Source: a virus
IMG/VR virus record: IMGVR_UViG_3300042884_001120
Span: 90,361 to 154,360 of that record
Direction: 5' to 3' (one strand)
DNA: 64,000 bases
The notes under the pieces were generated by a model, which saw only the letters and a program-made list of their open reading frames with translations, was not told the DNA's origin and made no database searches. Shown here one piece after another: positions 1 through 46,030 of the stretch (its first letter is position 1; every line of letters begins with the position of its first letter). Position numbers and translations under genes: made by a program.

Positions 1-553
1 CGTTGTATTTATTTCCAACAGTATTAATTAAATTATTATTGTTAAAGAAGTTTTCGGCCATTGTTTTGGCCGCTGTAACTGCGTCCAAAGAATACGGCCC
101 CTTTAAACTAAAATTAATCGACTGCGAATAATTATCTTTATTTAAGTTACGATCAAACGTACTAGATTCCGAGAAGTTCTCCAAGTACTTGGAATAAGTA
201 AATATTAGTCCACCATAATCAGTTCCCAATAAACTAGAAAAATCCCCTTCTTCTGGAATGTCTATATTGACAGTGTAAGTTTTTGTTCTTACGTCATTAC
301 CATTGGCAAAACTAATACTTGTTATTGTACCAAGTCCAAAATCATTACCATTAATTACTATTGGTTGCCAATTTTCAGAATCTAGTTCAAAAGATTTTAA
401 ATCAGTAATAATGCCAGTAACACCATCAGAATTTGTCAGGTCTAATAATAAACCTTCTATAGCTAATTTTTTAACTGTTCTATAACGAACTGTATCTGAA
501 AAAAACTCAGAAGTTCTGGAAACAGAAAGTAATGTAGCATTATTAAAGTTCAT
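1..553 (-). CDS. Tail-tip or baseplate protein, partial
   Basis: The reading frame starts at an ATG four bases after the tape measure stop codon and is open to the left edge, so only the first 184 residues are visible (N-terminus MNFNNATLLS). I do not recognise a domain. Its place immediately downstream of the tape measure gene, in the same orientation, is where siphophages encode distal tail or tail-tip proteins. That placement is the only basis for the role; the reading frame itself is secure. Confidence 0.6.
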   Translation of the reverse strand, partial: MNFNNATLLSVSRTSEFFSDTVRYRTVKKLAIEGLLLDLTNSDGVTGIITDLKSFELDSENWQPIVINGNDFGLGTITSISFANGNDVRTKTYTVNIDIPEEGDFSSLLGTDYGGLIFTYSKYLENFSESSTFDRNLNKDNYSQSINFSLKGPYSLDAVTAAKTMAENFFNNNNLINTVGNKYN

Positions 554-3500: not shown

Positions 3501-6346
3501 ATTAAAGCCGCTTTTCTTGTGGCAATTTCTTCTTGATACGAGCGCTTGACATTTGGAATTTGAAAAGCTAGTAGTGTTGCAAAACTTGTAAGTTGCGCGC
3601 CAACAGCTGTAACAGTTGAACTAATACTAGTACCATCTCCCTCTGCAAAATTTGGTATATATCCCTTTGCATAACCACGATTTGACATCGCGCGTTTATC
3701 GGCTGAGGTAGAGCCCTCGTCTCGCTTGTTAAACACGCCAACACCCATTGGATTACTAGAATTTACTAGCTCTGGATATTGTCTGGTATATATGCCGCTC
3801 TTCGGTACTCCAGCGCCAATTTCGCGTGATATTGATTCGTTTAAGGCATTTGCAAAGTTAGGAATATAGCCACTTGCAAATCCGGGCTTTCTTCTTGCTG
3901 GCTTACCGGGTGCTTTTCTTTTCGTTCGCTGTTCGGCACTGCTTCCAAGTATGGCATCTCTACCACCCCTTTCTTTAATAACTTTATCAGCAAAACTTAA
4001 AAGATTACCAGAAGATGCGGATACTTTAAAATCAGCAAGATTTCCAGCATAACCAAATAATTGTTTTAATTTATCAGCGTTTTGTCCACCCCTTACGTCA
4101 AAATCTCCCATATTTGCTGTAGATTTTGCCGCTATATAATCTAACGATTTAGATATAGCAACTTCAAACGCAGACCCAACAAAACCCTGTAAAGCGCCAT
4201 AAGCACCCCTAGACCCACCATCTTTTTCACTTAAAAAACTCTGACTCAGAACTGATTCATCAACACCCTGACCAAGTGGTTGTAAAGTTTTTATATAATC
4301 AGCAACTGTCTGTAATCCTTGTTTTTTTATCAACTCATTTAAATTACCAGCTGGTTTTACTGCGCCCTTTTTATATCCACGGACTGGTATATCCGTTACT
4401 AATATATCTCTATTATTTTTTCCAACTGAACTTGCGTTCGGAAATGTTCCATATTCTGGAACTAACACGCTTGCATTAGAGTTTATACTAGTTTTTGCAT
4501 TAGATTCTGCAAAATTAGGAATATATCCACGACCATACATTGGAATAACAGCAGAATCACCATTTTTACCAAATCTTGGTATTTCCACTTCTTCACTATT
4601 CTTAATAAATTTCTTACCACCAATAGTTCCTCTACTTAATTGCGCCCTTGGGTTTTTAGCACCTAATGCTTTAGCTTGCGCTTCTTCCATTGCGTACTGA
4701 TCAGCAAAATTTGGAATATAACCAGCGGCTTTCGTAGTTACTGGGACTTGACTGCCCTTTGGAACTCTAACACCAGCGCCAAATAAATTTTTTGATATTT
4801 GGGAAGTTAATGCGGCCTGTTGCTGCATTTGTGTAGTTTGTTGCTGAAGAACTGTTAATAAAACCTGAGAAGCCTGATTGACACTCATTGCCCCACTCGC
4901 CATTTGTTGATACAGCTGTGGATTTTTTGCTAATATTGCAGAAATACTAGCTTGAATACCTTGCTGTTGAGATGCCGTTGCGTTTAAACCTAGCAACTCC
5001 TTCACACTTCCTGCTGAAAATTTTGCGAAGTCTCCAAAAAGTTTTAACAAAACACCACCAACAAGTGCCAAACCGGGACCAGCGATAATATCTCCTAGCC
5101 CCTTTAAGATGCCATTTCCAATTTTGCCGCCAACACTTTCGCTATCTACATTATTTAAAGACTCTAATAAACTATTTCCTCCACCAACTAAATTTTCTAG
5201 CGCTGGGCCAAAAAGAGACTCTCCAGATTTTGCGGCAAACTGGGTTGCATTTTGCTTTAGGGCGTTAACTTGCGCAGCTAAAGTTTTGTTTAATTGATCA
5301 TTTCTTGTAATCGCCTCGTTTGTCGCAGTAGAAGATATTTGAACTGCGTTATTATAAACAGAATACTCTTTACCCAAATCAGATAGGGCAGCTTTTAAAA
5401 TGTTAATCTGGAAAACACCACCGACAGCTTCAGCAACCGAAGCCTGTTGTTGAGAGCCAAGAGTATCATAAACCTTTCCAAGATCTTTTAATAAATCAAT
5501 AGTTGATCTTAGTTGTCCACTAGCATCCGTAGTTTCGATACCGAGACTACCAAGTAAGTCAACAACCTTACCACGCTGAAGCCTTGTAAAAATTGTCTTA
5601 AACGAGTTACCAATAACTGCACCACCACGGGCAGTTGTCTGCTGTGCAGAGGTAACCAAACCAATAAGTTCATCTAACTGAACACCAGATTGAGAAGCAC
5701 TGCTACCAACACGACTAATTGCTTCTGCCAAGTCAGCGGAACTAACCGCGAACGCCGCATCAACTGTTGCAAACTTATTAACTATTTGCGTTGCAGTTAC
5801 AGACTGAGAGGCGAAACTGTTAACAGCTGCCGTTAATGCCTCAACGCTCTTTACTGTATCTAAACCGCTTAATCTTGCTAAAATCAGGGCCTCGCTTGTA
5901 CGTTTTAGCGTCTCCTCTACACCAAGGCCCTGACGTGAAAATTCTGTAGCGGCCTTTGCGACTTCCGCAAACGACTGGCCGGTATTTTTTGCAACATTAA
6001 AAAGAGAATCGCCAAATTTAGCTATTTGTTTATCAGATACATTTAAAATTACATTAATATCTGCAAGAGATTTCTCTACTTCAATCGTAGATGTTATTAA
6101 TGATTCGAAAGCCTTATTTAAACCATATAAAATAGTTGCACTAGCACCGAAAGCAACAACACGCGCGTTTGCCGCATCCAAGGATTTATTAAATTCAGAA
6201 AGCTGTCCAGTAATTCTACCTAATGGCTGGTTGCCCTTAGTGCTTAAATTTAAATTAAGATTATACTGTTGATTAACTAGTTTTTGTATCGCAGCATATG
6301 CTGGAGATACATTAGCATTAATATTAACTGTTGCTTGTGCGGGCAT
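557..6346 (-). CDS. Tail tape measure protein with embedded nuclease-like domain
   Basis: 1,929 residues, the largest gene here. The N-terminal 400 residues resemble the tape-measure minor-tail region, with the stretch around VEKSLADINVILN and long Ala/Ser/Gln-rich helices. Two Gly/Ala-rich hydrophobic stretches lie in the middle third. At about 0.15 nm per residue it would specify a tail near 290 nm if all of it is extended. The heptapeptide GYIPNFA occurs at residues 542, 607, 826 and 895. Between the second and third copies lies a globular segment with E728, GDFD (D748) and DFK (D772, K774), the order expected of a PD-(D/E)XK nuclease. Family knowledge supports the tape measure role; the nuclease call is inference from motif order. 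A GTGTAAA late-type motif sits about 35 bases upstream. Confidence 0.9.
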   Translation of the reverse strand: MPAQATVNINANVSPAYAAIQKLVNQQYNLNLNLSTKGNQPLGRITGQLSEFNKSLDAANARVVAFGASATILYGLNKAFESLITSTIEVEKSLADINVILNVSDKQIAKFGDSLFNVAKNTGQSFAEVAKAATEFSRQGLGVEETLKRTSEALILARLSGLDTVKSVEALTAAVNSFASQSVTATQIVNKFATVDAAFAVSSADLAEAISRVGSSASQSGVQLDELIGLVTSAQQTTARGGAVIGNSFKTIFTRLQRGKVVDLLGSLGIETTDASGQLRSTIDLLKDLGKVYDTLGSQQQASVAEAVGGVFQINILKAALSDLGKEYSVYNNAVQISSTATNEAITRNDQLNKTLAAQVNALKQNATQFAAKSGESLFGPALENLVGGGNSLLESLNNVDSESVGGKIGNGILKGLGDIIAGPGLALVGGVLLKLFGDFAKFSAGSVKELLGLNATASQQQGIQASISAILAKNPQLYQQMASGAMSVNQASQVLLTVLQQQTTQMQQQAALTSQISKNLFGAGVRVPKGSQVPVTTKAAGYIPNFADQYAMEEAQAKALGAKNPRAQLSRGTIGGKKFIKNSEEVEIPRFGKNGDSAVIPMYGRGYIPNFAESNAKTSINSNASVLVPEYGTFPNASSVGKNNRDILVTDIPVRGYKKGAVKPAGNLNELIKKQGLQTVADYIKTLQPLGQGVDESVLSQSFLSEKDGGSRGAYGALQGFVGSAFEVAISKSLDYIAAKSTANMGDFDVRGGQNADKLKQLFGYAGNLADFKVSASSGNLLSFADKVIKERGGRDAILGSSAEQRTKRKAPGKPARRKPGFASGYIPNFANALNESISREIGAGVPKSGIYTRQYPELVNSSNPMGVGVFNKRDEGSTSADKRAMSNRGYAKGYIPNFAEGDGTSISSTVTAVGAQLTSFATLLAFQIPNVKRSYQEEIATRKAALIQVTTEEISQRREAAKQLSATQTQERNQLAQEIKDRRAKLKTIQAGGAETLSRGARNASRLQAGAGAAGTALAFAPIIAETVASSIDTTNKEGRVKSAAVTGIGTALSAAGTGALVGSALGPVGTAIGGALGLAVGGLTAWTKALNESRTNLPELQASTKKTSEEQSRLAEVTQAVLPKLEQLQELRQGGNAGSREAVALEKEIRAIASNASPEAQKAISAGGLDFAKTQKNLTDVLKTLSDRLAKQGAAVQSTSIAEAAIGGKINKEQFGAQISKQAISGKTDAELKAMGDELSSATIDLSKLRGALGLTEEQAGKLEQQFGNSWQSFAQDLAKAISEEKRIRLDGARNTAKGFVDRNQAAVKALQDFENKLKKVISSMDIATRTSIATSGAEFASDFKRTKSTGQVDILEALGFEKAASNLKTKNIYQDTIGAQQTKSAADIDEAIKQSLNTAFEKAIPTATGVKDFSQYNDIRGQLGDLSGVTGNQDFSKKIQDISAKIGSVKTNTIQGPLGPLEQYDTEGMISALKENGVKDEEQLNKLRETFNSNNKLLFAAQKDAATKTVQRLDELIKVTIQEMDKLGGTMDQMFNDGGMGDNSVSDKFTEATDNFIAVQKDTTATDEQRGQAASDWIKAYQATGGTIDTSNPMYQMAVESMAKIGQKQQASIEANLAKVGLDPAMAARTVRQTTGALTSEQGLMEAAKVKAGIAFKPTDANIQSARVEQLRGKQSDIISKLGPEGAALSATYGAATEEVNKIPDGIRSLGDVFTTQIGMSNGYLSNMVSILGGLAGQGAQLPGMAAQEVQKGGDLSTIFNPAVGMNSAALMGGRNLLESAPNQMYRERFTMPDAALESQRAQTLPGSPLANPYQGMMLSTQGEMDVIQRQKEETQRNMTQAQAGESSLSFNSPITIAINAASQAQGQQIQQELQGVDQEIIDVIQGRLAKVEAIAAATVTKDPSLNPPPKKPKPLFNVLGLNIT

Positions 6347-8510: not shown

Positions 8511-9602
8511 TTAAAGGTAACTTCCAGAGATGAAAACGCCCCTATTTAAGTCTTGAGGACCACCAATCTGCACCTGATACTCTGCACTAAATGTGGCATT
8601 ATCACCAATCGAAGTGGAAATTGATTGAGAATTTACTTTAGCTCCCTTTAGGGTATAAGCTAGAGAAGGTGTCCCCAAAGCTCCACATGCTGGCTTTCTC
8701 ATAATAACAGATAAGTCAAAAGTTCCAGTCTGACAGATCATATCTGCTAAATTACCATCCTGTAAATCTCCAAGAATTGCTTCTACAGAAAGAGTAGCCT
8801 GTACTGGGAAATCAATTTCACGAGAGAAGGCGAATCTATTACCCAGTTTCTGTAATGGAGTTCTACCTAGGTCAAAGGCTAATGAAAAACTCTGAACCTT
8901 TAAGTCGTCGATATTAACACCAGTTAAACCATCAATATTTAAAGTAATATCTCCGGGCTGTAGTGCTGTTACTTGTGAGGCATTATCATTAGTGCTTGCA
9001 ACTGGCAACTTGAAAAACGATCCTGTAACTGGCTGACCATTAGCTGCATTAATAGCTGGAATTACAGTTGATGCAGTAATATCTGAATAAACTCTAATAT
9101 TTAGGGCCTCTAAGTCAACACTGGTAGTTGGGATATCACCCACGGCACCTTCTACGGAATAGGAGGTAATGAAAGCATTTCCAACACCTATAACTCCACT
9201 GCGTGTTCCAGCATACCCAACGGCATCATTTCCTTCGTCAGCAATCAAGAGGAAGTAATTCTTTTCGTCACTTGTCTTGTTCAAGATACCCGATAAGCAA
9301 GAAACTGCTGTCTGCGAACCGGTTGTTACAGTTAATCCAAGATATTTTTCATTACTGCCATCTGTAGGATAGTAACTGAAACTAGAACTTACGGTTGGTG
9401 CTTCAACTTCAACACGGTCTATAGCAGCAAGATTTCCATATTGGTTAACATCAGTGAAGTTTCTTGAAAAGTCTTCATCAAAAGATTGAACACGAGTTAG
9501 TTGCTTGATAGTACCAACTCCAGTATGTTGACCTGTAGCGCTACCAGTAACTTGCCCCGCAAAGAGTGATAACACATTATATATTGTACGATTTCTTGGC
9601 AT
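8511..9602 (-). CDS. Major tail (tube) protein
   Basis: 363 residues (MPRNRTIYNV...), beta-rich, with Gly/Ser/Thr-rich turns and paired segments such as VQSFSLAFDLGRTPLQKLG. It lies between the neck genes and the chaperone/tape measure block and is followed at once by a strong terminator, as expected for an abundant tube subunit. No sheath gene accompanies it, which favours a siphovirus. The call rests on position, composition and terminator rather than on a catalytic motif. Confidence 0.7.
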   Translation of the reverse strand: MPRNRTIYNVLSLFAGQVTGSATGQHTGVGTIKQLTRVQSFDEDFSRNFTDVNQYGNLAAIDRVEVEAPTVSSSFSYYPTDGSNEKYLGLTVTTGSQTAVSCLSGILNKTSDEKNYFLLIADEGNDAVGYAGTRSGVIGVGNAFITSYSVEGAVGDIPTTSVDLEALNIRVYSDITASTVIPAINAANGQPVTGSFFKLPVASTNDNASQVTALQPGDITLNIDGLTGVNIDDLKVQSFSLAFDLGRTPLQKLGNRFAFSREIDFPVQATLSVEAILGDLQDGNLADMICQTGTFDLSVIMRKPACGALGTPSLAYTLKGAKVNSQSISTSIGDNATFSAEYQVQIGGPQDLNRGVFISGSYL

Positions 9603-42716: not shown

Positions 42717-42917
42717 ATGAAAGTAACACGCACCTCGCCCTTCACGGGTATCACCCGCACCCTCAACCTCAACATCACCGCCGTACAGGTGGCGAGGTAT
42801 AACAACGGGTGGCTGTTGCAAGACGCCTTCCCTCAACTCTCGGCTGGCGAGCGCGAGTTCTACAAGACGGGCATCACCGACGAGGAGTGGGAAAAGTTCA
42901 TAGGAGGCGACGAGTAA
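42717..42917 (+). CDS. Conserved small aquatic-phage protein
   Basis: 66 residues. RTSPFTGITRTLNLNITAVQ then LLQDAFPQLSAGEREF and TGITDEEWEKF match a recurring uncharacterised small protein of marine and freshwater phages. Function unknown. Confidence 0.65.
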   Translation: MKVTRTSPFTGITRTLNLNITAVQVARYNNGWLLQDAFPQLSAGEREFYKTGITDEEWEKFIGGDE

Positions 42918-42928
42918 CGCCGCAAGCG

Positions 42929-42990
42929 CCTGTCTTACAAGGCAGGCCGGGCGGGGCCGGGTGCTGTAAGTCTCTGATACTGAACAACTT
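42929..42990 (-). repeat. GC-rich boundary element, copy h (inverted)
   Basis: The only complete copy in reverse orientation: TGTCTTACAA precedes GCCGGGCGGGGCCGGG, then CTGTAAGTCTCTGATACTGA. Confidence 0.75.
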
Positions 42991-42998
42991 AACTGGGC

Positions 42999-43027
42999 TT
43001 GACAAGCTATCCAAGTTGTGTTATACT
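42999..43027 (+). promoter_or_regulatory. Consensus-like promoter TTGACA-17-TATACT without an ATG
   Basis: The best sigma70-like promoter in the arm, but no start codon follows. The predicted transcript begins near 43034 with an AACTAAT/ATTAGTT hairpin, so it probably makes noncoding RNA. Confidence 0.65.
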
Positions 43028-43205
43028 TATATAAGTGAGAAACTAATAAATCCCACAAATTAGTTATATAGTTTTTGGGTTAGTTTTTCAGATATGAGGG
43101 ATGGGTATAAGTGCATCGGAAACTATTTAAGGGGATATCGCTCGTAAATCTCGCCCCTATTTGAAATAAACGGCATTCGTAAATTGGATTTTTTTGAAAA
43201 AGTGT
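43028..43205 (+). other. Gene-free leader before the ornate RNA
   Basis: Nothing coding. A 7-bp inverted repeat AACTAAT (43041) / ATTAGTT (43059) lies at the start and the rest is A/T-rich. Confidence 0.4.
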
Positions 43206-43234
43206 TTGACGCTATGGGAAAATAAGTTTATAGT
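43206..43234 (+). promoter_or_regulatory. Promoter TTGACG-17-TATAGT of the ornate RNA
   Basis: Sits about 65 bases before tRNA-Met with no intervening ATG used by a gene; predicted start near 43241. Confidence 0.65.
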
Positions 43235-43240
43235 AATAAT

Positions 43241-43965
43241 ACGCACTGACCTAGCAGTGTCTAACACAATCTAGGACGATCTTTAACAGAACATTTCGAC
43301 GCAGAGTAGAGAACTGGTATCTCGTCACGCTCATAACGTGAAGGTAGTGGGTTCGATTCCCGCCTCTGCCAGACTTGACTAGGCGCAAGTTCCGAAAGCT
43401 AAAGGAACTCCCGCGATAGGTGATAGCGAAGCCCAGTGCACAGGGAACGTGTAGCCTATAAGATAAATCTCCGCGAAAGTGAATGAGATTTTCTAGTCAT
43501 AACAATTTAACACTCTCATGTTGTAGGCCATAGTCCATGAGAGGGGTAAGACCGAGTTGCTTGTTGGTGTGTTTGTAGGTCTTATTCAAGCTAGGTTAGC
43601 CAAATGCCTTGGTAAGCTACGATCCTAGCAGTTTTGTAAAACACAAGCTAGACGGTTTATACGGGCTCCATGCCCGAGGATCGTTGATACGAAGGAACAA
43701 ATTCTAGAACAAAATCCTTCTTACCATTAATTTTTGTAATGCTACCAAACGCACGTCTCAAGTCGTGGGAGGTCGGATACCGAAGCCGATGTGAATGCAG
43801 AGAGCAAAGCCGTGTATGTGAGGGGCCACATATCCTCTATCTATGGGGGGAACATAGAAACTTGTAGGTCGGAGCAGGGAACCCAAATCCGACAAACCCT
43901 GTGCGATTGCAACGCCGAATCCTTTAGCGAGGATAGCGCTCGACGGAGCGGCAGGGTCAATTTTT
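43241..43965 (+). ncRNA. Large ornate structured RNA (GOLLD/ROOL-like candidate)
   Basis: About 700 noncoding bases between two tRNAs (including tRNA-Met) are packed with perfect stems. An outer stem GACTAG (43377) / CTAGTC (43493) closes a four-way junction whose arms are AGTTCC/GGAACT, ATAGG/CCTAT and AAATCTC/GAGATTT capped by a GAAA tetraloop. Next come CTCTCATG/CATGAGAG (43513/43536), TAAGACC/GGTCTTA (43547/43578), ACGATCC/GGATCGT (43619/43678) and GAAGGA/TCCTTC. GTCGGA (43868)/TCCGAC (43888) crosses CAGGG (43875)/CCCTG (43897), a pseudoknot. GOLLD and ROOL RNAs are known as large phage RNAs adjacent to or containing tRNAs. Class assignment is inference. Confidence 0.65.
43300..43371 (+). 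tRNA. tRNA-Met or tRNA-Ile2 (CAT), with 1:72 mismatch
   Basis: All arms fold: D stem GAGA/TCTC, anticodon stem TCACG/CGTGA with loop CTCATAA (anticodon CAT), T arm GTGGG/CCCGC. The acceptor has six pairs (GCAGAG/CTCTGC) and a C-C mismatch at position 1:72. No CCA is encoded. A 1:72 mismatch recalls initiator tRNA, but the anticodon stem lacks the three G-C pairs of initiators. Confidence 0.85.
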
Positions 43966-44041
43966 ATACGGCAATGTTCCAAGGCTGGCGAGTTGGTCTC
44001 CAAAACCGACTGGGAAAGTTCGATTCTTTCGCCGTGTGCCA
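43966..44041 (+). tRNA. tRNA-Trp (CCA), CCA end encoded
   Basis: Acceptor ATACGGC/GCCGTGT, anticodon stem TTGGT/ACCGA with loop CTCCAAA, T arm GAAAG/CTTTC, discriminator G and encoded CCA. The D stem is weak (mostly G-U). It ends the ornate RNA transcript. Confidence 0.8.
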
Positions 44042-44050
44042 TTGTAGTAT

Positions 44051-44080
44051 TTGACACCCTAACCAAAAAACTATTATCAT
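44051..44080 (+). promoter_or_regulatory. Promoter TTGACA-18-TATCAT
   Basis: TATCAT ACAGTA ATG; the spacer has the CTAACCAAAAAA shared promoter text. It begins ten bases after tRNA-Trp. Confidence 0.6.
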
Positions 44081-44086
44081 ACAGTA

Positions 44087-44323
44087 ATGAAATACTTCCC
44101 ATTCTTTGCCGTTCTATCTGTAACAATAGTTTCCTTCCTTGTTTATCAGGATCACAAGCCACACAAGACGCCGATGTTCCGTTACTCTCCAAAACTTGCC
44201 ACTTCGGAGGAACAGGTAGCCGCACAAGAAAAACAATTGGTTAAACATATTGTTTGGCGCAAAATGCAAAATAAGGTAAAACAAATCAATTCCACTCAAG
44301 GAAAAGATTTCATAGGTTTCTAG
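44087..44323 (+). CDS. Small secreted or membrane-anchored protein
   Basis: 78 residues; hydrophobic N-terminus (FPFFAVLSVTIVSFLVY), then a charged region. No lipobox. Function unknown. Confidence 0.55.
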   Translation: MKYFPFFAVLSVTIVSFLVYQDHKPHKTPMFRYSPKLATSEEQVAAQEKQLVKHIVWRKMQNKVKQINSTQGKDFIGF

Positions 44324-44521: not shown

Positions 44522-44591
44522 TTGTTGATAATCAATGGGTTACGTGGACCAAGGGGGCCCGGCGCTGTAAGTTGCTGATAACCAATGAGTT
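44522..44591. repeat. GC-rich boundary element, copy i (composite)
   Basis: A forward left flank (TTGATAATCAATGGGTTACG) is joined to an inverted right flank (GCGCTGTAAGTTGCTGATAA) around a shortened GC core, as if two opposite copies recombined. Confidence 0.65.
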
Positions 44592-44611
44592 ATTAAATTG
44601 TAAAATTGTTC

Positions 44612-45271: not shown

Positions 45272-46030
45272 ATGCAACTCGACTTCATCGGAAACTCAAT
45301 CTCAACTACTAATACTAATGCAATCGAACAATCAAGATTCTGGGATAATGATTTTAATCGGATCACTATTAACCGCCCTCGCCTTGATACTACGAAAGTA
45401 GATAAGTTTTTTAATTCAATTTTAGACGAGGAGATCGCCGAGTATTCAAAATACTGGGATAGTGTCACGCCTCGCAACGCTTCCGAAGTTTTTCAGCGTT
45501 GGTTGTTCGCATTCATGAGCGTCCATACATCATGGCGTTCAAACATTAACGGATACCTAATGATCCGTAACTGGTGGGAGTGGATGAACAAGCCAGAGGA
45601 GCTTGAGCGTAGGATCGTAGAGAGTGGTGCTGGCCTCCATAAAAACCGCACAAAATTCATTACAGCTTTTGCTGAACACTATTGGGCTAATATTGATTTC
45701 TACAAGAAAGCAGAGGACGAGTCATGGGTAGAGTTTCGTGATCGTCTGGTAGACCAAGTGCTTGGCCTTGGCATGGCGAAAGTTAGCTTTAGCCTTGAGA
45801 TGGTTTATCCCTCTATTGCCGAGGTGACTTGCATGGACACTCACTTGTTCCAGTTGTTCGGATTGGATCAGACCAAAGACAGCAAGCAGTATCACGCGAT
45901 GGAGCGTCATTGGATTGAAATGTGCAAAATGTGGAATGTTAGCTCGTATGTCGCCCGTTGTATCTGGTGGGACAGAAACCAAGGCTACGGAGACAGCCGA
46001 TATTGGAGCTTTGTTTTAGAGAAGGAGTAG
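45272..46030 (+). CDS. HhH-GPD-like protein 2
   Basis: 252 residues. VDQVLGLGMAKVSFSLEMVY resembles the hairpin, then CMDTHLFQLFGL matches the Asp-containing post-hairpin helix. The N-terminal part is Trp-rich (WRSNINGYLMIRNWWEWM). Less canonical than the preceding gene. A C/A-rich leader precedes it. The pair could act together or represent diverged duplicates. Confidence 0.55.
   Translation: MQLDFIGNSISTTNTNAIEQSRFWDNDFNRITINRPRLDTTKVDKFFNSILDEEIAEYSKYWDSVTPRNASEVFQRWLFAFMSVHTSWRSNINGYLMIRNWWEWMNKPEELERRIVESGAGLHKNRTKFITAFAEHYWANIDFYKKAEDESWVEFRDRLVDQVLGLGMAKVSFSLEMVYPSIAEVTCMDTHLFQLFGLDQTKDSKQYHAMERHWIEMCKMWNVSSYVARCIWWDRNQGYGDSRYWSFVLEKE

Follow-up and report, generated by a model that had tools for sequence, protein, structure and literature searches.

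The locus and its features

The window analysed here is a stretch of 64,000 nucleotides, bases 90361-154360 of a 154,360-base virus record, from a phage whose large terminase subunit has at most about 24% identity to the best cultured phages among the matches listed. Positions 43206-44041 of the window include a conserved promoter, a leader, a tRNA-Met gene, a long gene-free spacer and a tRNA-Trp gene. The features are as follows, all on the plus strand.

43206..43234, sigma-70-type promoter TTGACG-17-TATAGT, 10/12 consensus
43244..43275, 5' leader hairpin CACTG-ACCTAG-CAGTG, the loop of which can pair with CTAGG at 43271-43275
43278..43288, putative boxA-like leader motif GATCTTTAACA
43300..43371, embedded tRNA-Met (CAT), from ARAGORN; Rfam 56.7 bits
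43375..43501, block A1, a four-way junction closed by UGACUAG/CUAGUCA, with one GAAA-tetraloop arm
43510..43726, block B, a multi-stem domain of about 215 nt, from covariation in alignment A1
43733..43808, putative twister-type self-cleaving ribozyme, from an Rfam twister-P1 match and covariation; stems P1 43733-43736/43805-43808, P2 43740-43742/43797-43799 and P4 43752-43755/43764-43767; pseudoknots T1 43757-43759/43802-43804 and T2 43744-43745/43762-43763
43815-43832, 43840-43858 and 43868-43893, three hairpins, two with G-rich loops, read from the sequence
43897..43957, 3' domain closed by CCCUG/CAGGG, with the hairpin CGCUC-GACG-GAGCG and further hairpins
43966..44041, tRNA-Trp (CCA), directly 3' of the RNA, from ARAGORN

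The spacer between the two tRNAs, put at about 590 gene-free bases in the preliminary description, is 594 nt long, both tRNAs being confirmed by ARAGORN, and contains no credible gene. The only ORFs that overlap it are short frames with GTG starts (43758-44225 on the minus strand and 43791-44054 on the plus strand), and both cross structured RNA and the tRNA-Trp gene. There are 13 perfect stems of at least 6 bp with loops of 3-60 nt, against 5.7 expected, a number reached in 1 of 200 dinucleotide shuffles, which bears out the earlier count of at least ten. The single-sequence folding energy is only mildly low for the whole spacer (z -1.6) and unremarkable for the whole RNA (z -1.0), and the case for an RNA thus rests on covariation in relatives.

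The preliminary description proposed a large and structured non-coding RNA next to phage tRNAs, and named a lack of covariation across homologues as the finding that would speak against it. We ran that comparison and the proposal came through it, with compensatory base-pair changes present in blocks A1 and B, the twister and the 3' domain. These alignments indicate that the locus is a real, large, folded non-coding RNA, bigger than first described, and relatives in about 20 other phage contigs present it as a chain of discrete folded blocks. On that comparison the architecture can be written as promoter - leader - (tRNA-Met) - (A1 or A2 or D) - (C) - (B) - twister - (G-loop hairpins) - (3' domain 1, 3' domain 2 or terminator).

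Promoter, leader and tRNAs

The promoter at 43206, also given in the preliminary description, is conserved: by best score a promoter with a 17-nt spacer is at the equivalent position in 19 of 20 loci, a count that includes loci closely related to each other. Transcription is expected to start near 43241-43244. With regard to the second promoter suggested at 42999, it is indeed consensus-like (11/12) and is conserved in L004-L006 and L024, but we have dropped it as a promoter of the RNA in particular. A gene of about 82-86 aa (MEVNIKYSLPKEEV...) with a long 5' leader (L004 1840-2095, L005 2610-2885, L006 8000-8260) follows it in L004-L006, ahead of the promoter of the RNA, and this gene is one that the window has lost.

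The leader hairpin is kept in L002, L004, L005 and L006, and its pairing is nearly invariant and hence gives no covariation evidence. The leader motif is always between promoter and RNA, in the variants GATCTTTAACA, GCTCTTTAATAATTT and GATCTTTGATAG, with the counterparts GCTCTTTAATAATTTG in L004/L005 and GATCTTTGATAGTACATTTT in the other clade. It appears to resemble boxA (GTTCTTTAAAA), which is found in rRNA and CRISPR leaders (PMC7862264).

The embedded tRNA-Met is at the equivalent place in the window, L002, L047/L055, L109/L111 and L118, and is missing from L004-L006, L050, L075, L077, L080, L086 and L088, and is thus an optional block. In the window, L047 and L109 the first acceptor pair of this tRNA-Met(CAU) is a C-C mismatch; the tRNA could be initiator-like, an elongator or a tRNA-Ile2. 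The tRNA-Trp follows the RNA in the window and L002. We looked for a plus strand terminator between the RNA and tRNA-Trp and found none that is recognisable, and a transcript of about 800 nt is therefore expected. The preliminary description had an RNA of 700-1,000 nt carrying both tRNAs. The two tRNAs are not fixed parts, as tRNA-Met is missing in many relatives and tRNA-Trp is behind the RNA in some only.

Relatives and the exchange of blocks

With a glycosylase-like neighbour protein (45272-46030) as query we obtained 31 related loci, and parts of the RNA are present in six of them (L002-L006 and L024). Further viral contigs were found by a pattern search with the twister motif, and others by way of block B and the leader. 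Five pattern matches (L034, L039, L108, L076 and L116) were judged to be due to chance, and a genome scan gave only four matches, which are lone copies of the twister motif or chance. Searches for similar DNA in 50,697 cultured-phage records and 72,556 plasmids gave only tRNA-sized or chance matches, and the RNA family is thus known here only from metagenome-derived contigs.

The most informative relative is L002, with flanks about 98% identical to the window. It lacks 43509-43731 (block B), a clean loss between two AAATT/AATTT joints, and has about 15 nt in place of 43805-43895 (the hairpins). L004-L006 have kept the leader, twister and 3' end, with blocks A and B and tRNA-Met missing and part of the hairpins present in L005. 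In L075, L077, L086 and L088 the twister is between block B and an intrinsic terminator, while L050, L077, L080, L086 and L088 have kept blocks and twister in a unit with no tRNA. L114 and L142 have block B with no adjoining twister, just 5' of an ORF. In place of A1 other phages have block A2 (UUGACCG...CGGUCA) or D (UUGCCAG...CUGGCUU), and block C (GAUUACUG...CAGUAAUC) comes next in some of the phages with A2 or D. The joints between blocks are short AAATT/AATTT stretches, and the comparison indicates that phages acquire, lose or swap blocks at these joints.

Two other elements were seen in these contigs. One is a dispersed intergenic repeat of about 45 nt (GGCCGGGCGGGGCCCGGCGCTGTAAGTGCNTGATA...), at 42946-42991 and 44551-44595 in the window and with many copies in L002-L006 and L024, up to about ten per 20 kb and on both strands. 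The other is a conserved RNA-like stretch (AACCCTCTC...AGGACGC...TTTTTAGGACAAA) in L044 (about 6090-6306), L075 (about 136-275, minus strand), L082 and L118 (about 9070-9205); in L044 it is 3' of a phage tmRNA and is followed directly by a twister of the UCUC type.

Conserved pairing in blocks A1 and B and in the 3' part

Block A1 corresponds to the closed four-way junction with a GAAA arm of the preliminary description, which is well supported. Its folding energy is low (z -4.19), and in alignment A5 (7 sequences) 99.6% of cells are paired and 5 pairs have changed on both sides, with covariation of 0.184 against 0.134 shuffled and at most 0.054 slid; this set and that of 8 sequences for the 3' domain are small, and relatedness inflates covariation counts.

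In the case of block B (alignment A1, 14 sequences) 98.8% of cells are paired, 13 pairs have changed on both sides, and covariation is 0.389 against 0.196 shuffled and at most 0.143 slid. The covariance model made from it, R1, matches the expected phage records with E down to 8e-65. It also matches a diverged block B at another place in the phage of L005 (71 bits, E 2e-18) and, in the phage of L096 (E 1e-7), a block B of reduced length just 5' of the twister. An 8-bp stem at 43619-43626/43677-43684 was dropped, as it clashes with 43590-43595/43624-43629, which is preserved by compensatory change (GCUAGG/CCUAGC against GUUAGG/CCUAAC). Scans of representative loci with Rfam 15 gave no family for blocks A1, A2, C, D or B or for the two 3' domains.

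The hairpins have counterparts with GGGG(G)AA loops in L005 and L024 and none in L002, and the energy support for this stretch is weak (z -0.47). For the 3' domain (alignment A4, 8 sequences) the two helices tested are 100% paired, 3 pairs have changed on both sides, covariation is 0.293 against 0.108 and the folding z is -2.66. Its closing helix, CCCUG at 43897-43901 with CAGGG at 43953-43957, can form in 8 of 8 aligned sequences; it is invariant, and hence consistent with the data rather than proven by them. This helix competes with a pairing of 43897-43901 to 43875-43879, which was to make a pseudoknot with the hairpin 43868-43873/43888-43893 in the preliminary description. That pseudoknot can be written down, but it lacks covariation support, its partner CCCUG has the alternative pairing with CAGGG, and we have dropped it; the hairpin itself is otherwise seen in L005 only. 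A pattern scan for the 3' domain gave mostly chance matches in coding sequence. L040 and L056 (CCCAG...CUGGG) are possible relatives of the domain. In several relatives there is an intrinsic terminator or a second 3' domain 3' of the twister.

The twister-type ribozyme

The twister is the single block common to nearly all relatives and was overlooked in the preliminary description. The cmscan match of the window to twister-P1 is weak (25.8 bits, E 0.0063), and those of the relatives L043, L056 and L048 are better at 45.4, 37.5 and 36.9 bits (E 2.3e-7, 4.2e-5 and 6.3e-5 respectively). Scores in the relatives span 27.5-45.4 bits and none reaches the Rfam gathering cut-off of 67.2, and with E-values that are significant and scores below the curated cut-off we file it as twister-type and not as a member of the Rfam family.

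Alignment A2 has 39 sequences fetched with an exact core pattern, which leaves only P1, P4 and one P2 pair free to vary, and the invariant core is thus not evidence, its letters being set by the search. The stems are in the twister order, with 79.5% (P1), 85.9% (P2) and 94.8% (P4) of cells paired and many changes on both sides in P1 and P4, and covariation is 0.387 against 0.100 shuffled and at most 0.108 slid. T1 (L1-L4) is paired in 100% and T2 (L2-L4) in 98.7% of cells, mostly fixed by the pattern. Where the Rfam consensus has CCC in the L4 loop with GGG, T1 has CUC/GAG, and for the GC/GC of the consensus T2 has AC/GU. Pairing is preserved in each case, and compensatory change has rebuilt both pseudoknots. 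By comparison with solved twisters (PMC6154101) the cleavage-site U-A, L4 and the P2-proximal guanine (below P2) are present, and the cut is predicted between U43737 and A43738. There is a P5-type hairpin in the optional position, UCGG...CCGA in the window and ACGG...CCGU in L047. The folding energy of the stretch is unremarkable (z +1.36), P1 is just 4 bp in the window, and L002 has a G-A mismatch adjoining the cut.

Plain twisters of the UCUC subtype are found just 5' of ORF-like starts in L035, L078, L089, L090, L091, L100, L104 and L105. Pistol, type-P5 twister and hammerhead ribozymes that score above their Rfam cut-offs are found in contigs with UCUC twisters (L107 1917-1983 and 3155-3221, L089 3097-3152, L091 8348-8412). 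In L096 and L098 a promoter-like sequence 5' of the twister is so near to it that the cut would fall about 10 nt from the transcript start, and would leave a 5'-OH RNA with 3' domain and terminator.

Searches for GOLLD and ROOL

The preliminary description called the RNA GOLLD/ROOL-like, and gave the GOLLD accession as RF01998, which is a group II intron family; GOLLD is RF02032. Neither covariance model matched above cut-off in 25 phage records. For GOLLD (a model of the conserved region, 416 positions, cut-off 150 bits) the phage of the window gave no match at all, the positive control being for ROOL only; for ROOL (RF03087, cut-off 99.1 bits) the 25 records likewise gave no match, and the same search matches the plasmid pMP118 at 130.4 bits. 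With Rfam at E up to 10, the region 42900-44150 gave no GOLLD, ROOL or HDV-like match; it gave the tRNAs and the sub-threshold twister, and some weak matches (snR3, ceN115 and similar) that we take as chance. Membership of GOLLD or ROOL is not supported by these searches, and the resemblance to GOLLD is one of setting. A weak GOLLD match far below cut-off was seen at L119 (G019:C1:177443-177685), in the phage of L042 (15.8 bits, E 0.005).

Proposed working of the RNA

We think it likely that this is a phage-encoded, modular, structured and self-trimming non-coding RNA, the body of which is probably an abundant structural RNA in infection. The proposal starts from the pairing of the folds, the conservation of the promoter and the exchange of blocks, all of which the compared sequences display. 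From these we infer transcription, cleavage and a role as follows. Host RNA polymerase would start at the promoter at 43206-43234, and the putative boxA-like leader would help read-through of tRNA-Met, A1, B, the twister, the hairpins, the 3' domain and tRNA-Trp, about 800 nt in all, with tRNA-Met and tRNA-Trp presumably excised by tRNA enzymes. The twister would fold and cut at U43737/A43738, a site predicted by homology, and the cut would free a folded body A1-B (43372-43737, about 366 nt) ending in a 2',3'-cyclic phosphate, while the 3' unit would be left with a 5'-OH at the head of a compact pseudoknotted fold. In loci with a terminator 3' of the twister, the cut would free the body from the terminator, and the position of the twister between block B and terminator in L075, L077, L086 and L088 is as expected for such 3' trimming. 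We take the body as the working part, which may be a scaffold, decoy or RNA particle, as thought for GOLLD and ROOL; a structural-RNA role like that suspected for those two is what one would guess first. However, L004-L006 keep leader, twister and 3' domain in the absence of blocks A and B, and the essential part may thus be something other than the body. The weak twister match of the window and the block B copies with no twister in L114 and L142 count against the self-trimming model.

A 14-mer RNA cage is a trait of GOLLD. A bolder and rather doubtful reading is that we have a new class of large phage RNA made by domain shuffling, in which the trimmed body assembles into an RNA-only particle or scaffold. 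The junction blocks A1, A2, C, D and B, each closed by its own stem, would be exchanged at A/T-rich joints within a constant frame of common promoter-leader and terminal twister.

Other explanations deserve consideration. The blocks could act in cis on the phage genes that follow them, as leader elements of a riboswitch-like or translation-controlling kind, as the position of block B in L114 and L142 and of the plain twisters of the same subtype before ORF-like starts would suggest; in most relatives, however, the unit ends in an intrinsic terminator or tRNA and not at a gene start, and we regard this as unlikely. We give still less credit to a unit for tRNA processing, in which the ribozyme would separate tRNA-Met from tRNA-Trp, theta-like, with the blocks as spacer. 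Self-cleaving ribozymes next to phage tRNAs have been reported (PMC10879173), several relatives have a tRNA-Met within the unit, and tRNA-Trp comes after it in the window and L002. However the twister is not at a tRNA end, the distance to tRNA-Met being about 360 nt and that to tRNA-Trp about 230 nt; the tRNA-free units have kept their blocks and twister, and the covariation of A1 and B suggests that these blocks have a function themselves.

It is similarly improbable that the twister fold is catalytically dead and now a rigid structural joint of the RNA. The sub-threshold Rfam score, the 4-bp P1 of the window, the mismatch by the cut in L002 and a window folding energy that does not favour a strong fold would fit such a joint, but the U-A cleavage site, L4 and P2-proximal guanine are retained, and twisters of this subtype are also present in contigs rich in ribozymes, together with pistol, hammerhead and type-P5 twister ribozymes. 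Least credible of all, and in our opinion very improbable, is a highly divergent GOLLD or ROOL RNA. The surroundings (phage, tRNA island), the size and a less conserved 5' part with an optional tRNA are the same, and GOLLD env-38 likewise follows a tRNA-Met (PMC12286853), but the covariance models failed to find either class, ROOL with a working control, nothing of the kind is matched in 42900-44150 at E up to 10, and the conserved GOLLD 3' region is missing.

Large phage RNAs of the GOLLD and ROOL type are abundant, elaborate and functionally unexplained. Blocks that come and go between near-identical phages are natural deletions and swaps that can be used to assign function to parts, and a built-in ribozyme is a possible way for large RNAs to define their own ends. 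The RNA would offer an unambiguous example of domain shuffling. Several of its structured domains (A1, A2, C, D, B and the two 3' domains) would be new additions, having no match in Rfam 15 in the representative loci scanned.

Comparison with known systems

GOLLD is a large ornate phage RNA in tRNA islands, with a conserved 3' part, a variable 5' part and tRNAs sometimes inside (PMC12286853). The window RNA differs from it in the absence of the conserved 3' region, in a built-in twister, in exchangeable blocks and in a body of only about 366 nt. With ROOL it shares being a large structured phage RNA near tRNA islands, but the 5' and 3' parts of ROOL are intertwined (PMC12286853) whereas the blocks of the window RNA are independent.

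With the twister family (RF03160, clan CL00120) it shares P1-P2-P4, the double pseudoknot T1/T2 and the U-A cleavage site. It is unlike that family in its subtype, with a UCUC loop and GAGAG partner and scores below the Rfam cut-off, and in that the twister is one block in a larger RNA.

Theta (HDV-like) ribozymes adjoin phage tRNAs and cut at tRNA 3' ends (PMC10879173). The window RNA does not belong with them, having no HDV-like Rfam match and a predicted cut far from both tRNAs, with the nearest tRNA end about 230 nt away, and its ribozyme is of another class. However, as self-cleaving ribozymes in phage tRNA transcripts, the theta ribozymes are the nearest precedent for it (PMC10879173).
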